A stretch of DNA of 32,118 bases from a virus. A program made the position numbers and the translations under genes. Below, piece by piece: positions 4,149 through 22,299 of the stretch (its first letter is position 1; each line of letters starts with the position of its first letter). The stretch spans positions 1-32,118 of the IMG/VR virus record IMGVR_UViG_3300046476_000251; one strand, given 5' to 3'. The notes beneath the pieces were generated by a model, which worked only from the letters and a program-made list of their open reading frames with translations, searched no databases and was not told where the DNA came from.

Positions 4149-4546
4149 TGCAAACCCCGAATCGCTTCGGCGCGATGCTGAAAGCTCTCGCGGTGCTTGC
4201 CCGACAGCACATTTCCGGCGTATTCCGGCGCCTTGTAGCCTTCGCCGCGCGTCGCCTCGGCCGCACGACGGAACCCGCGCAGGGTGTCGTCGTATCCGCT
4301 CAGATCGGCCCAGGTGTGCGACGGGCAGATGATCGGCTCTTCGCCCTTTCCCTCGACCTTCGGCGCGAACTTGACGTAAGTCGTCATGTTCCCGTTCCAC
4401 ACCTCGCCGCGCTGCGTGAGCAGCAGCAGAGCATCATTGATCATGCGTTGCTCGACGTCGGGAAACGCGCTGTAGAACGATGCGCGCGAGTATCCCCGCC
4501 CCTCTTGCATGAACTGCAATATCTCTTCGGTGCTTATCGACTTCAT
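4145..4546 (-). CDS. Hypothetical early phage protein (133 aa)
   Basis: A 133-residue protein. The N-terminal ~65 residues (STEEILQFMQEGRGYSRASF ... VEQRMINDALLLLTQRGEV) look like a small winged-helix or helical DNA-binding fold. The remainder includes ICPSHTWADLSGYDDTLRGF and a charged C-terminal helix. The ATG at 4546 overlaps the stop of the Ref-like nuclease (ATGA), fixing the start. No named family is recognised; transcriptional regulation is only a possibility. Confidence 0.6.
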   Translation of the reverse strand: MKSISTEEILQFMQEGRGYSRASFYSAFPDVEQRMINDALLLLTQRGEVWNGNMTTYVKFAPKVEGKGEEPIICPSHTWADLSGYDDTLRGFRRAAEATRGEGYKAPEYAGNVLSGKHRESFQHRAEAIRGLQ

Positions 4547-4875
4547 TGAAAGACTCGCTCGTTTGGTGGAACGTGATCGATAGGGGCGCGCTGCGTCTCT
4601 TCGATCAACTCTTGTTCTGTGAATCCGTACATCGCTTCGAATGCTTCGGCGTTCAGGCCGTGAACGCCTTGATGCGGGTCTGCGTGATGCATATGGCATA
4701 AAGGCAGCGTTTGATAGTTCGACGCTTTGCCCCATCCGCCGCGACCATGTATGCGGTGATGAACTAGCGCCTGCATGCCGTCGACGTCGTATCCGAGCCG
4801 ACGGCACACGATGCAACCGCGCGCCGCGACGTGACCCATGTAGCGGCGCTCTGCTGCCGGTGTCGCTTTGCTCAA
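4543..4875 (-). CDS. Ref-like HNH nuclease (RecA-dependent nuclease family)
   Basis: A 110-residue protein with the layout of phage P1 Ref-type nucleases: AAERRYMGHVAARGCIVC, then VHHRIHGRGGWGKASNY, LPLCHMHH and GVHGLNAEAFEAMYG. The CxxC pair, the HH and the CHMHH cluster would form the HNH/zinc core. P1 Ref cuts DNA at RecA-bound D-loops and stimulates recombination; the same role is inferred here beside NinB, ERF and VRR-NUC. Translation starts at TTG (4873-4875), supported by GAGGT seven bases upstream. A 13-codon ORF starting at 4913 ends in a TTGA overlap with this start and may couple its translation to the methyltransferase. Confidence 0.8.
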   Translation of the reverse strand: MSKATPAAERRYMGHVAARGCIVCRRLGYDVDGMQALVHHRIHGRGGWGKASNYQTLPLCHMHHADPHQGVHGLNAEAFEAMYGFTEQELIEETQRAPIDHVPPNERVFQ

Positions 4876-4915
4876 TCTGCTACCTCAGTGGGATTGATAA
4901 TACCGTGTTTCATCG

Positions 4916-5539
4916 CTAAAAGGTAGTACTGACGGACAAATTTTTTGCGTCGATCCGCTGTCCCAACCAACGCATCACGTTGACGCACATGCTATTGCCG
5001 AGCGCCTTGTAACGCGGCCCGTCGGCGGCTGGCTTGCCGCGAACCGGAACCTGCGTGTACTGGTCCGGGAACGCTTGCAATCTCTCGCACTCGACGGGCA
5101 TCAGGCGGCGCACGGCCATCGGCGGCGCTGAGACGGCAGGCATTACGCCGCCGTTCGCATGGCTCCCTGTGAAGCCGCCTGCGCGCAGTGTCGGCGACAG
5201 GTCGTTTGTAGCGTCCGCGCCGTAGTCCTTTGCGCTGAAGCAGATCGGCGTAAGTACGTGCGGCTTATCGCCGCCGCCCGACGACGCGCGCAGGCATCCG
5301 GCAATCTCTTCGCCAAGCTCGGCCGTAGCGCCACCTTCGCGACCGCGCAGCGCGACGGATACGATCGGCTGACCGCGCCCCGTTCCATCCTCGCTCGCGT
5401 CAAACCCTTCGGCCTTGAGCGTGTGCGTGATGTCGCCGGTCACGCAGACGGCGAATGTCTCGGTGTCAAAATCAAGGCGCTGACTTTTGGCCGTCAGGCA
5501 GGTTCCGACGTCAATGCTTCCGCTAGTGTTGCCCCCCCC
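4916..5539 (-). CDS. C5-cytosine methyltransferase, C-terminal part after the frame break
   Basis: This frame holds the second half of the methyltransferase: the variable target-recognition part, then motif IX-like RRLMPVECERLQAFP and motif X, ALGNSMCVNVMRWLG, needed for folding and cofactor binding. It has no convincing start of its own. Removing one G from the 9-G tract at 5532-5540 joins it in frame to the upstream half (…AFGGGNTSGS…), giving a protein of about 458 residues, a normal size for a phage Dcm-like enzyme. As sequenced the fragment is probably not translated unless ribosomes or polymerase slip on the G run. Sequencing error is the main alternative. Confidence 0.75.
   Translation of the reverse strand, partial: GGGNTSGSIDVGTCLTAKSQRLDFDTETFAVCVTGDITHTLKAEGFDASEDGTGRGQPIVSVALRGREGGATAELGEEIAGCLRASSGGGDKPHVLTPICFSAKDYGADATNDLSPTLRAGGFTGSHANGGVMPAVSAPPMAVRRLMPVECERLQAFPDQYTQVPVRGKPAADGPRYKALGNSMCVNVMRWLGQRIDAKNLSVSTTF
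4917..4948. repeat. Left copy of imperfect direct repeat flanking the methyltransferase gene
   Basis: The segment AAAAGGTAGTACTG...ACAAATTTTTT closely resembles 6339-6368 (GAAAGGTAGTATTG...GCTAATTTTT). The two copies lie at the 3' end and just before the 5' end of the methyltransferase gene, so that gene looks like an inserted cassette. Confidence 0.45.
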
Positions 5540-6293
5540 CGAATGCTTGCAGGTATCCGCTGCATGCCTCGTCGGTTCCGGGAAAGCCGCCTGCACCAGT
5601 GCGCGATGCAAGGGTTCCGGCAGCTTCTTGCCCCGCTTCTCTGCGCGGCGCAAAATCCCGGCGCACGCCGTCGAACTCAAAAAGTACGTCGGCGGGATTG
5701 AAGTCTTTTCGAGCACTTGCGATAACGAACACACGGCGGCGGCGTTGGGCCACTCCGAAATATTGGGCGTCAAGGACTCTCCACGCGATTGTTCGCGCGG
5801 GTCCAAACACACAACCAGCGTTCGCCCATTTTTTCCCTGGCGGCTGAAGTTCTTCATCTTCGCCGGAAAGCGCTCCAAGAAAGCATCCGAAGGCGTTGTC
5901 TTTGGACGAGAGGACGCCCGGCACGTTTTCCCATACGGCAACGGCGGGGCGCTCTCCTGCGCGTCCGCGAACATAGTCAATTGCATCGAGCAGCCTCACG
6001 TAGCTAAGTGTTAGTTGTCCGCGCTCATCGGAAAGCCCTTCGCGCAAGCCCGCGACGCTAAACGCTTGACATGGCGTGCCGCCGACCAAAACGCCGGGTG
6101 CCGCGACTTCGCCGATCAAGACCTTTCGCGCGATCTTCGTCATATCGCCGAGATTCGGAACGTCCGGGTAGTGATGCGCAAGCAATGCGGAAGGGAACGC
6201 CTCGATTTCTGACAGCCACGCAGCGCGCCACCCAAGCCCGTGCCACGCGACCGTCGCCGCTTCTATCCCGCTGCACACACTGCCGTATTCCAT
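5523..6293 (-). CDS. C5-cytosine DNA methyltransferase, N-terminal part (frameshifted)
   Basis: 256 codons contain the catalytic half of a C5 methyltransferase: motif I YGSVCSGIEAATVAW (AdoMet binding), motif IV GGTPCQAFSVAG with the catalytic Cys, motif VI WENVPG and motif VIII QRRRRVFVIA. The frame ends at a TAG just after the 9-G tract, before the recognition and C-terminal motifs, so this product alone should be inactive. In a phage such an enzyme usually protects DNA from host restriction. The gene is flanked by imperfect direct repeats (4917-4948, 6339-6368), and an inverted repeat lies upstream of its start at 6316-6352, suggesting a self-regulated cassette. Confidence 0.88.
   Translation of the reverse strand: MEYGSVCSGIEAATVAWHGLGWRAAWLSEIEAFPSALLAHHYPDVPNLGDMTKIARKVLIGEVAAPGVLVGGTPCQAFSVAGLREGLSDERGQLTLSYVRLLDAIDYVRGRAGERPAVAVWENVPGVLSSKDNAFGCFLGALSGEDEELQPPGKKWANAGCVFGPARTIAWRVLDAQYFGVAQRRRRVFVIASARKDFNPADVLFEFDGVRRDFAPRREAGQEAAGTLASRTGAGGFPGTDEACSGYLQAFGGGQH
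5532..5540. repeat. Nine-base homopolymer (poly-C on +, poly-G on coding strand)
   Basis: Nine C in a row on the plus strand lie inside the methyltransferase gene at exactly the point where its reading frame breaks. Eight would restore the frame. Tracts of this length slip readily during replication and are classical phase-variation sites, and also classical sequencing-error sites. Confidence 0.9.
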
Positions 6294-6315: not shown

Positions 6316-6352
6316 CAATACTACCTCAAAACATCTCTGAAAGGTAGTATTG
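6316..6352. promoter_or_regulatory. Perfect 11-bp inverted repeat upstream of the methyltransferase
   Basis: CAATACTACCT (6316-6326) and AGGTAGTATTG (6342-6352) are perfect inverted copies with a 15-base spacer, between the methyltransferase start and the previous gene's stop. A related but weaker pair (CTACCT 4880-4885, AGGTAG 4921-4926) lies past the other end of the gene. It is a likely operator for a dimeric regulator or an RNA hairpin. Confidence 0.5.
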
Positions 6353-6368
6353 GAGCGCTAATTTTTAG
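6339..6368. repeat. Right copy of imperfect direct repeat flanking the methyltransferase gene
   Basis: Matches 4917-4948 at most positions; see the left copy. It overlaps the right arm of the inverted repeat and the stop of the next upstream gene. Confidence 0.45.
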
Positions 6369-20914: not shown

Positions 20915-20985
20915 TTGTTCGCTCCTTTGGAAATCGCGGCATCAATCTTGGCCCTCACGCTCGCTGCAGCATCATCTGGACTCAC
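20911..20985 (-). CDS. Micro-ORF with IDAA motif (24 aa)
   Basis: A GTG-started ORF locked by 4-base overlaps to both neighbours (VSPDDAAASVRAKIDAAISK). It looks like the detached C-terminal 'IDAA' tail of the modular family seen in this region, and may be a remnant or a translation-coupling element. Confidence 0.35.
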   Translation of the reverse strand: MSPDDAAASVRAKIDAAISKGANK

Positions 20986-21281
20986 TGAGCCTTGGGGCGC
21001 GCAGCCTGCCAGTGCAGCCGCGTTGAGTAAATAATGCTGTTGATGCTTCGAATGTCCTTGCCCCGGCAAGATTCCTCCGCTTCGAACCACGCCACCGGCT
21101 GCGCCTCACGCGGTGCGCGCGTATTCCAAAGTTCGAAGCATTCTTCGGGAAGCTCGCAGGTAATGGATGGGCGCACGAAGCAGCATTCGTTCGTGCATCG
21201 CACGATTTCTTCGTAAGCACACACGTGGACATGTTCCGCGTCTTCTCCGCAGAACGGGCACGGCTTCAGTTCTTCAGTCAT
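20982..21281 (-). CDS. Lar-like restriction-alleviation zinc protein
   Basis: A 99-residue protein. Residues 1-~55 match the Lar/Com zinc-ribbon type: ELKPCPFCGEDAEHVHVCAY, IVRCTNECCFVRPSI, then CFELWNTRAPRE, the diagnostic 'W(N)TR' ending. Lar of Rac relieves type I restriction; many phage homologues exist with unproven function. The C-terminal 40 residues are an added tail (VAWFEAEESCRGKDIR). Starts at an ATG 8 bases within the end of the next gene. Confidence 0.75.
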   Translation of the reverse strand: MTEELKPCPFCGEDAEHVHVCAYEEIVRCTNECCFVRPSITCELPEECFELWNTRAPREAQPVAWFEAEESCRGKDIRSINSIIYSTRLHWQAARPKAQ

Positions 21282-22299
21282 TTGCTCGCTCCATTGCTGC
21301 GTCGATGGTGCGGTCCACGCTGGCATCAAAGCGATCGCTGATCCAATCCTTATGCGTGTCATGCGTCGGCGCTTCGAGCGGAGCGTTCAGCGTCATGGTC
21401 GGAATATCGCCGGGAGGCGAGGAAAAGCGCATCTTGTCGCGGAGGAAGCGATACCGCTCTGCATCAATCCTGTCTTGCTCTGCGGACTGGGCGAGAGGGG
21501 CGGCGTAGAGCTTGTCTCCGCGCTTCAATGGCGAACCGTTCGGGCCATGCAGGATTTCGACGAACAGGCCGTCGTCACCTTCGTCAACTTGCGCCACCGC
21601 CTCTTGCTTGTCGCCATCGGCTACCGATCTCGCGGGAGTGGCGAGCAAACTTCTGATTGCGGCCCGCATTTCCGTTGCTGATAACTCGGCGGCGAGTGCA
21701 ACCTGCTTCTTGCCTACGCGCTCCATAAGTCCGGCTTTCACGCCGATTTCGTCAATCTGCGCATTTGTCAGCTTCGCCCCCGCTGTGTCGATAGCAGGCT
21801 CGCACGGATCGTTGCACGTCTCGGGATCGCCGCAGCAGTGCGCAACGTCGGTCGTGAATGGTGCGCCGTATGGCGCGGAGCGCGGTAGCTTCGACATAAC
21901 GAATTCCGCAACCGAGTTGGCTAGCTTGTAATCCGCCGGAATGGTGTATCGACCAAACAGGCCCATCACGATGTCTTGCAAATCGCCGTCGCTCATGACC
22001 TTGCGTCTTGCGGCTTGATGGTTGGCAAACGTCCTCAGAAGTTGAGCCGCGCGAGCACACACCGCGTCGCCTTCGTAATTGCTGAAGCGGGTTATCCGGT
22101 CGCTCATCTCGTCAAGCTGCTCGGCAATATCGAGCGCATCCCTCACATCGTCCTGCTTCGCCCCCGCTGTGTCGGCGATGCTCGCGGAGAGAAGGGCGCG
22201 GGCGAACTGCACGATCACCGGCGTATCGCGGTCTGCCCCGCGACGCATAAACGCGTTGTTCAACTCTTGCCACAGGATCAGGATTTCGTCGTCAGTCAT
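21274..22299 (-). CDS. Modular hypothetical protein with DTAGAK linkers (341 aa)
   Basis: A 341-residue mosaic. Three parts can be seen: an N-terminal helical module (TDDEILILWQELNNAFMRRG), a middle one (SDGDLQDIVMGLFGRYTIPA), and a C-terminal one (GLFVEILHGPNGSPLKRGDK ... DRIDAERYRFLRD ... RTIDAAMERAND). The segment DTAGAK occurs twice as a linker, coded by an exact 20-base repeat (21771-21790 and 22155-22174). It ends with the IDAA motif of its neighbours. GAGGT sits six bases before the ATG at 22299. The protein seems to have grown by fusing modules. Confidence 0.6.
   Translation of the reverse strand: MTDDEILILWQELNNAFMRRGADRDTPVIVQFARALLSASIADTAGAKQDDVRDALDIAEQLDEMSDRITRFSNYEGDAVCARAAQLLRTFANHQAARRKVMSDGDLQDIVMGLFGRYTIPADYKLANSVAEFVMSKLPRSAPYGAPFTTDVAHCCGDPETCNDPCEPAIDTAGAKLTNAQIDEIGVKAGLMERVGKKQVALAAELSATEMRAAIRSLLATPARSVADGDKQEAVAQVDEGDDGLFVEILHGPNGSPLKRGDKLYAAPLAQSAEQDRIDAERYRFLRDKMRFSSPPGDIPTMTLNAPLEAPTHDTHKDWISDRFDASVDRTIDAAMERAND
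21771..21790. repeat. 20-base direct repeat, copy 1 (DTAGAK linker)
   Basis: Identical to 22155-22174; both encode DTAGAK-type linkers on the minus strand. Confidence 0.8.
22155..22174. repeat. 20-base direct repeat, copy 2 (DTAGAK linker)
   Basis: Identical to 21771-21790, 384 bases away; the distance is a multiple of three, so recombination between copies would delete an in-frame module. Confidence 0.8.

Follow-up and report, generated by a model that had tools for sequence, protein, structure and literature searches.

Phase-variable methyltransferases are well known as epigenetic switches and defences of bacteria, and the poly-G tracts of Campylobacter phages lie mainly in receptor-binding genes. 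Multispecific C5 methyltransferases with several recognition modules are known from the Bacillus phages SPR and phi3T, and to our knowledge switching at a G-run is not part of the descriptions of these enzymes. Hypermutable G-runs are described as diversifying Campylobacter phages (Sorensen et al. 2021, Cell Rep 35:109214, quoted in PMC10877375 and PMC9311878). Bacterial poly-G phase-variable methyltransferases include that of a Helicobacter pylori type III mod gene with a G9 tract (PMC12003011), and Dmt of phage P1 (NC_005856, YP_006537.1) is a bifunctional enzyme with an m5C and a Dam part, the annotated gene of which is a single open frame.

The locus examined here is a C5-cytosine methyltransferase gene on the minus strand, from 6293 to 4916, of a 32,118-nucleotide stretch of viral DNA (the window). 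As in the mod gene of H. pylori, a methyltransferase gene is split at a run of nine G and one frame change fuses the parts; however, that gene belongs to a bacterial m6A restriction-modification system, whereas the present enzyme is a phage m5C methyltransferase whose putative recognition region holds the tract. The likeness to the Campylobacter phages, as far as the citing articles describe them, would be that a phage genome holds hypermutable G-runs from which phage diversity arises. Their host is rich in poly-G contingency loci, whereas here the run sits in a DNA methyltransferase gene, and the phages and prophages carrying it have almost no other long G-runs. P1 Dmt has a homologous N-terminal C5-methyltransferase part (~61% amino acid identity over ~230 residues). 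The P1 dmt entry AF234173, labelled ‘incomplete’, was considered as a tract variant and rejected, as it is a recorded deletion mutant. The region that separates motifs VIII and IX, a mosaic of recognition-type modules, recalls the descriptions of SPR and phi3T. A literature search, with subscription papers mostly outside its reach, found no poly-G phase variation of phage cytosine methyltransferases. The new element here would be a poly-G switch in such an enzyme, with bacterial poly-G methyltransferases and the poly-G of Campylobacter phages being known already.

The reading frame of the gene was found to be broken exactly at the nine-G run (Table 1). ORF a carries motifs I (SVCSGIEAA), IV (GGTPCQAFS), VI (WENVPG) and VIII (QRRRRVFVI) and terminates with GYLQAFGGGQH. 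Past the tract, ORF b reads GGGNTSGSIDVGTCLTA and onwards, with RRLMPVECERLQAFPD as motif IX and YKALGNSMCVNVM as motif X at its C-terminal end; this second frame downstream of the run includes GGGNTSGSIDVGTCL and continues to motifs IX and X. Pfam model PF00145 was matched in two complementary, non-overlapping parts (ORF a covering profile positions 4-165 and ORF b positions 270-322), and ORF a alone aligned to positions 5-196 of TIGR00675 with a score under the cut-off. A single frame change at the tract gives an open frame of ~458 residues. The first-pass annotation had described a cytosine methyltransferase split exactly at a 9-G tract, with frame repair restoring a protein of ~458 residues. 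Its coordinates proved right. The ORFs, the motif placement and the complementary PF00145 parts bear out the first statement, and the joining of both halves by one frame change, together with intact 8-G relatives, agrees with the second. The run is the sole G/C run of at least seven within the window. As GGG makes up just 12% of the glycine codons in this phage and the break recurs at G-runs in many relatives, the split at a G-run is beyond what chance would give.

Table 1. Features of the split methyltransferase gene and its upstream region (window coordinates).
Feature	Position	Strand	Description
ORF a, catalytic N-terminal part	5523..6293	(-)	256 aa; motifs I, IV, VI, VIII; stop few codons past the tract
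ORF b	5986..4916	(-)	Open frame covering the C-terminal half
C-terminal part, +1 frame	4916..5531	(-)	Remaining variable/target-recognition region and motifs IX, X; PF00145 profile 270-322
Nine-G tract, proposed frame-switching site	5532..5540	(-)	Nine C on the + strand; 8 G at the same place in in-frame L005, L006, L007
Putative target-recognition modules	5130..5546 (ends approximate)	(-)	FGGGNTSGSIDVGTCLTAKSQRLDFDTETF / VCVTGDITHTLKAEGFDASEDGTGRGQPIV / SVALRGREGGATAEL... / ICFSAKDYGADATNDLSPTLRAGG; inferred from module shuffling among relatives; low-confidence model
Perfect 11-bp inverted repeat	6316..6352	.	CAATACTACCT/AGGTAGTATTG; directly upstream of the methyltransferase start

Motifs I, IV (PCQ), VI (ENV), VIII (QRR.R), IX and X occur in the canonical order of C5 methyltransferases, in the window across two frames. 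An intact relative, L005, matched the full profile with 126 bits against a cut-off of 100.65 (PF00145 / TIGR00675 test). In its AlphaFold model the catalytic core was mostly confident, residues 208-350 being without confident structure, and the best PDB matches of the model were M.HhaI and M.HaeIII, in keeping with the catalytic fold. Among relatives the interval between motifs VIII and IX is a mosaic of recurring modules, which are taken to be putative target-recognition modules. The family is large and phage-borne and includes the N-terminal part of P1 Dmt. No restriction partner was evident, the neighbouring gene (4543-4875) encoding an HNH protein that is weakly Ref-like. The enzyme is probably a phage-borne orphan DNA cytosine-5 methyltransferase of a P1 Dmt-like family.

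The methyltransferase gene lies among those of a tailed phage of temperate type, namely TerL, portal, head protein, Erf, Gam, SSB, primosomal protein, NinB and repressor. Partition or plasmid replication genes were not found among the 30 ORFs compared with PHROGs, in a record that has many further small ORFs and may be a fragment; the earlier description of the element as a phage-plasmid is thus unsupported. At 20982-21362 on the minus strand, a weak match to Lar-family restriction alleviation proteins was identified (PHROG 599; TIGR03655 under cut-off), which may mark a second gene of anti-restriction function in this phage. The inverted repeat upstream of the methyltransferase is a possible operator or promoter element. 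The gene is also flanked by a 35-nt direct repeat (77% identical copies at 4911-4945 and 6332-6366), the core of which, AGGTAGTAY, is found only there, three times in the window against zero expected. Of the two copies, the downstream one is retained in L166 and L003, and possible roles for the repeat are a cassette boundary and a repeated promoter/operator.

Tract length in relatives, a comparison that had been proposed as a check in the first-pass annotation, was found to range from 7 to 15 G, with in-frame and out-of-frame states both present. L005, L006 and L007, whose N-terminal parts are ~85-92% identical to that of the window gene, have eight G and keep the frame, reading FGGGNT, and the close 8-G relatives are intact at 409-441 aa. 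Nine G were also present in L151, L156 and L158, which represent the window's own lineage; together with the window, these four contigs derive from different assemblies and are 99.8-99.99% identical, and as L158/L084 diverges outside the shared block, they are not all one clone. No change of tract length was seen among near-identical contigs, the length being shared within the window cluster, L152/L159 and L163/L164. In L163 (3300037171_000150) and L164 the methyltransferase is in frame and has G-runs in two adjacent modules (9 and 7 G), the lengths being the same in both near-identical contigs.

The viral collection was scanned with a frame-agnostic DNA pattern for the tract module of the window with at least seven G. 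Three lineages were in frame (L149, L150 and L152/L159), all with 8 G, and five were out of frame: the window, L157 and L153 with 9 G, L154 with 10 G and L155 with 7 G. Applied to bacterial genomes, the same pattern identified an out-of-frame tract of 10 G in Sphingobium chungbukense DJ77, and the bacterial genome G077 was also broken, at a run of GGA+G6. A pattern match in L161 (a Phycisphaerales MAG) was rejected as not being a methyltransferase. Further cases were turned up by patterns for two other modules. Eighteen broken lineages, covering at least five modules, were identified; every frame change fell within an interval holding a G-run (6-15 G), and in each lineage one frame change at this interval joins both halves. 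The runs of two broken cases are short (L091, GGA+G6; L166, G6A3). L089, which starts inside the gene, was judged on separate comparisons, and the C-terminal matches of L093 and L154, both missed by the motif pattern, were obtained by tblastn. At least seven lineages hold 8-10 G in frame (L005, L006, L007, L253, L254, L252 and L163). Many relatives have no tract at all; L086, for example, encodes the same GGG as GGCGGCGGA, and the isolated phages BL94, DMCA, NV1.1.1 and D14E are intact, and their variable regions have no run of six or more.

For three modules, natural alleles were identified both in and out of frame, and a fourth has an only-out-of-frame pair. In the CLNGGGMGR module, L253 has 8 G in frame and L257 has 9 G out of frame; a 646-base stretch to one side of the tract has 95% nucleotide identity between the two, and the sole indel of the conserved surrounding stretch lies in the run. 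In the GAHMGGG module, L254 has 9 G in frame, compared with 10 G out of frame in L090 and L111. The breaks of L090, L092 and L111 had been considered as module-junction errors off the tract, which was rejected for L090 and L111 on the basis of L254 and of frame analysis; the break of L092 can likewise be explained by a frame change at the tract, and a sister allele was not found. The HGQGG module supplied the fourth pair, with 15 G in L249 and 7 G in L250; these are shifted out of frame in opposite directions and have 92.7% nucleotide identity over 1018 bases, with the gap inside the tract. L087/L249 (3300026518_000668) thus holds 15 consecutive G within phage coding sequence, in the module MAHGQGG-AEI.

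The search with ORF b as query includes the out-of-frame translation and favours +1-broken relatives, so that the number of 18 is not a rate. A frame-unbiased set was assembled from N-terminal queries only together with Sphingomonadaceae genomes, a run carrier being defined by at least 8 G or by the GGA+G6 of G077. Among carriers, three were broken and three intact, while among non-carriers none were broken and ~133 were intact (Fisher p ~5e-5). In this set, runs of at least eight numbered 4 in 88 kb of variable region against 9 in 1212 kb, a moderate, 6-fold enrichment (p 0.009) that comes from one clade. An earlier figure of 17-fold was dropped, as it came from the set biased by the ORF b query. 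Across 12 whole records (~419 kb), mostly chosen for carrying a tract, nine of the ten G/C runs of at least eight were the methyltransferase tract.

Sequence past the break was compared between pairs in which both genes are out of frame. For the window and L166, dS was 0.49, dN 0.032 and dN/dS 0.065 over 169 codons; for L249 and L250, dN/dS was 0.13 over 259 codons. The C-terminal half is not behaving as a pseudogene, because purifying selection between the out-of-frame lineages is strong (dN/dS 0.065), so that for a large part of its history it is translated and under selection. Such selection behind the break fits reversible switching or recoding and speaks against a pseudogene. L166 is very close to the window gene and has its frame broken at the corresponding place (5617-5630 of L166), with G6A3 instead of G9. 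Because the runs differ at this same place, the +1 states of L166 and the window probably arose separately.

These observations leave several explanations to be weighed against phase variation. Homopolymers are prone to sequencing and assembly errors, and the window differs from its intact relatives by one base, so that the true gene could have 8 G; an error of a systematic kind could even be common to near-identical contigs. This had been named in the first-pass annotation as the main competing explanation, but it is now very unlikely, given that the same nine G occur in three other assemblies and that the break recurs across the family in many independent lineages. Relatives without a run are not broken, intact 8-G relatives occur within the same collection, and length gaps go well over one base; the gap between L249 and L250 amounts to eight G and so is no base-calling slip. 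Permanent loss of function, with the gene en route to decay, would agree with the window allele being out of frame in all four known near-identical contigs. It is nonetheless the reading given the least credence, being highly improbable for genes with a single lesion each, frames that stay open as far as motifs IX and X, a dN/dS of 0.065-0.13 past the break and in-frame sister alleles.

The main rival is recoding, in which transcriptional slippage or ribosomal frameshifting at the G-run would yield some full-length enzyme, the tract tuning enzyme amount without a DNA switch. Long G-runs could promote slippage of polymerase or ribosome, the half past the break is under purifying selection in out-of-frame lineages, and the window and L166 are both +1 at a synonymous divergence of 0.49. 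A recoding signal should, however, hold one frame relation, while in-frame, +1 and -1 states are all natural here (7, 8, 9, 10 and 15 G), and tract length in the DNA differs between related alleles. Recoding as the sole explanation is therefore considered unlikely. It is not exclusive of DNA switching, but alleles in frame, at +1 and at -1 exist side by side, which favours switching at the DNA level.

Phase variation by homopolymer slippage, as originally proposed for this gene, is supported by the 8 versus 9 G and 9 versus 10 G alleles, by the location of 18 of 18 lesions at G-runs and by selection past the break. The run has at least seven G inside a reading frame and is unusual for the genome, its length varies among alleles, and the rest of the gene is intact and selected in the out-of-frame state. 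Against this reading stand the shared tract lengths of near-identical contigs, the many relatives without a tract, the moderate run enrichment in the frame-unbiased set and the short runs of two broken cases. From these comparisons, the tract is quite probably a contingency locus of the poly-G type that gives phase variation in a family of P1-Dmt-like phage methyltransferases, the window allele being in the OFF state. Slipped-strand mispairing in replication would alter the number of G at useful rates. Some tract lengths would keep the frame and give the full-length enzyme of ~458 aa (ON), and others would stop translation a few codons on, leaving a 256-aa catalytic fragment (OFF). This fragment would lack motifs IX and X together with the greater part of the recognition region, and is expected to be inactive. 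ON alleles would methylate the DNA of the phage, and of the lysogen. A phage stock could then be mixed, a form of bet-hedging in which methylated particles would be guarded against Type II restriction, while unmethylated particles would escape restriction that depends on methylation (McrBC-like) or be spared what methylation costs. More tentatively, and with rather less confidence than the switch itself, G-runs in several interchangeable recognition modules may allow shuffling to move switch and specificity together, so that phages could hedge both whether and how their DNA is methylated.

If phase variation is the correct explanation, one phage lineage would yield both methylated and unmethylated particles, with part of the progeny equipped to face either type of restriction. 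‘Split’ phage methyltransferase genes in databases should accordingly not be written off as pseudogenes or errors, and the natural in-frame and out-of-frame alleles of this family make the switching idea directly testable. The attacker, the phage, appears to own a kind of switch that is well known from epigenetic control and defence in bacteria.
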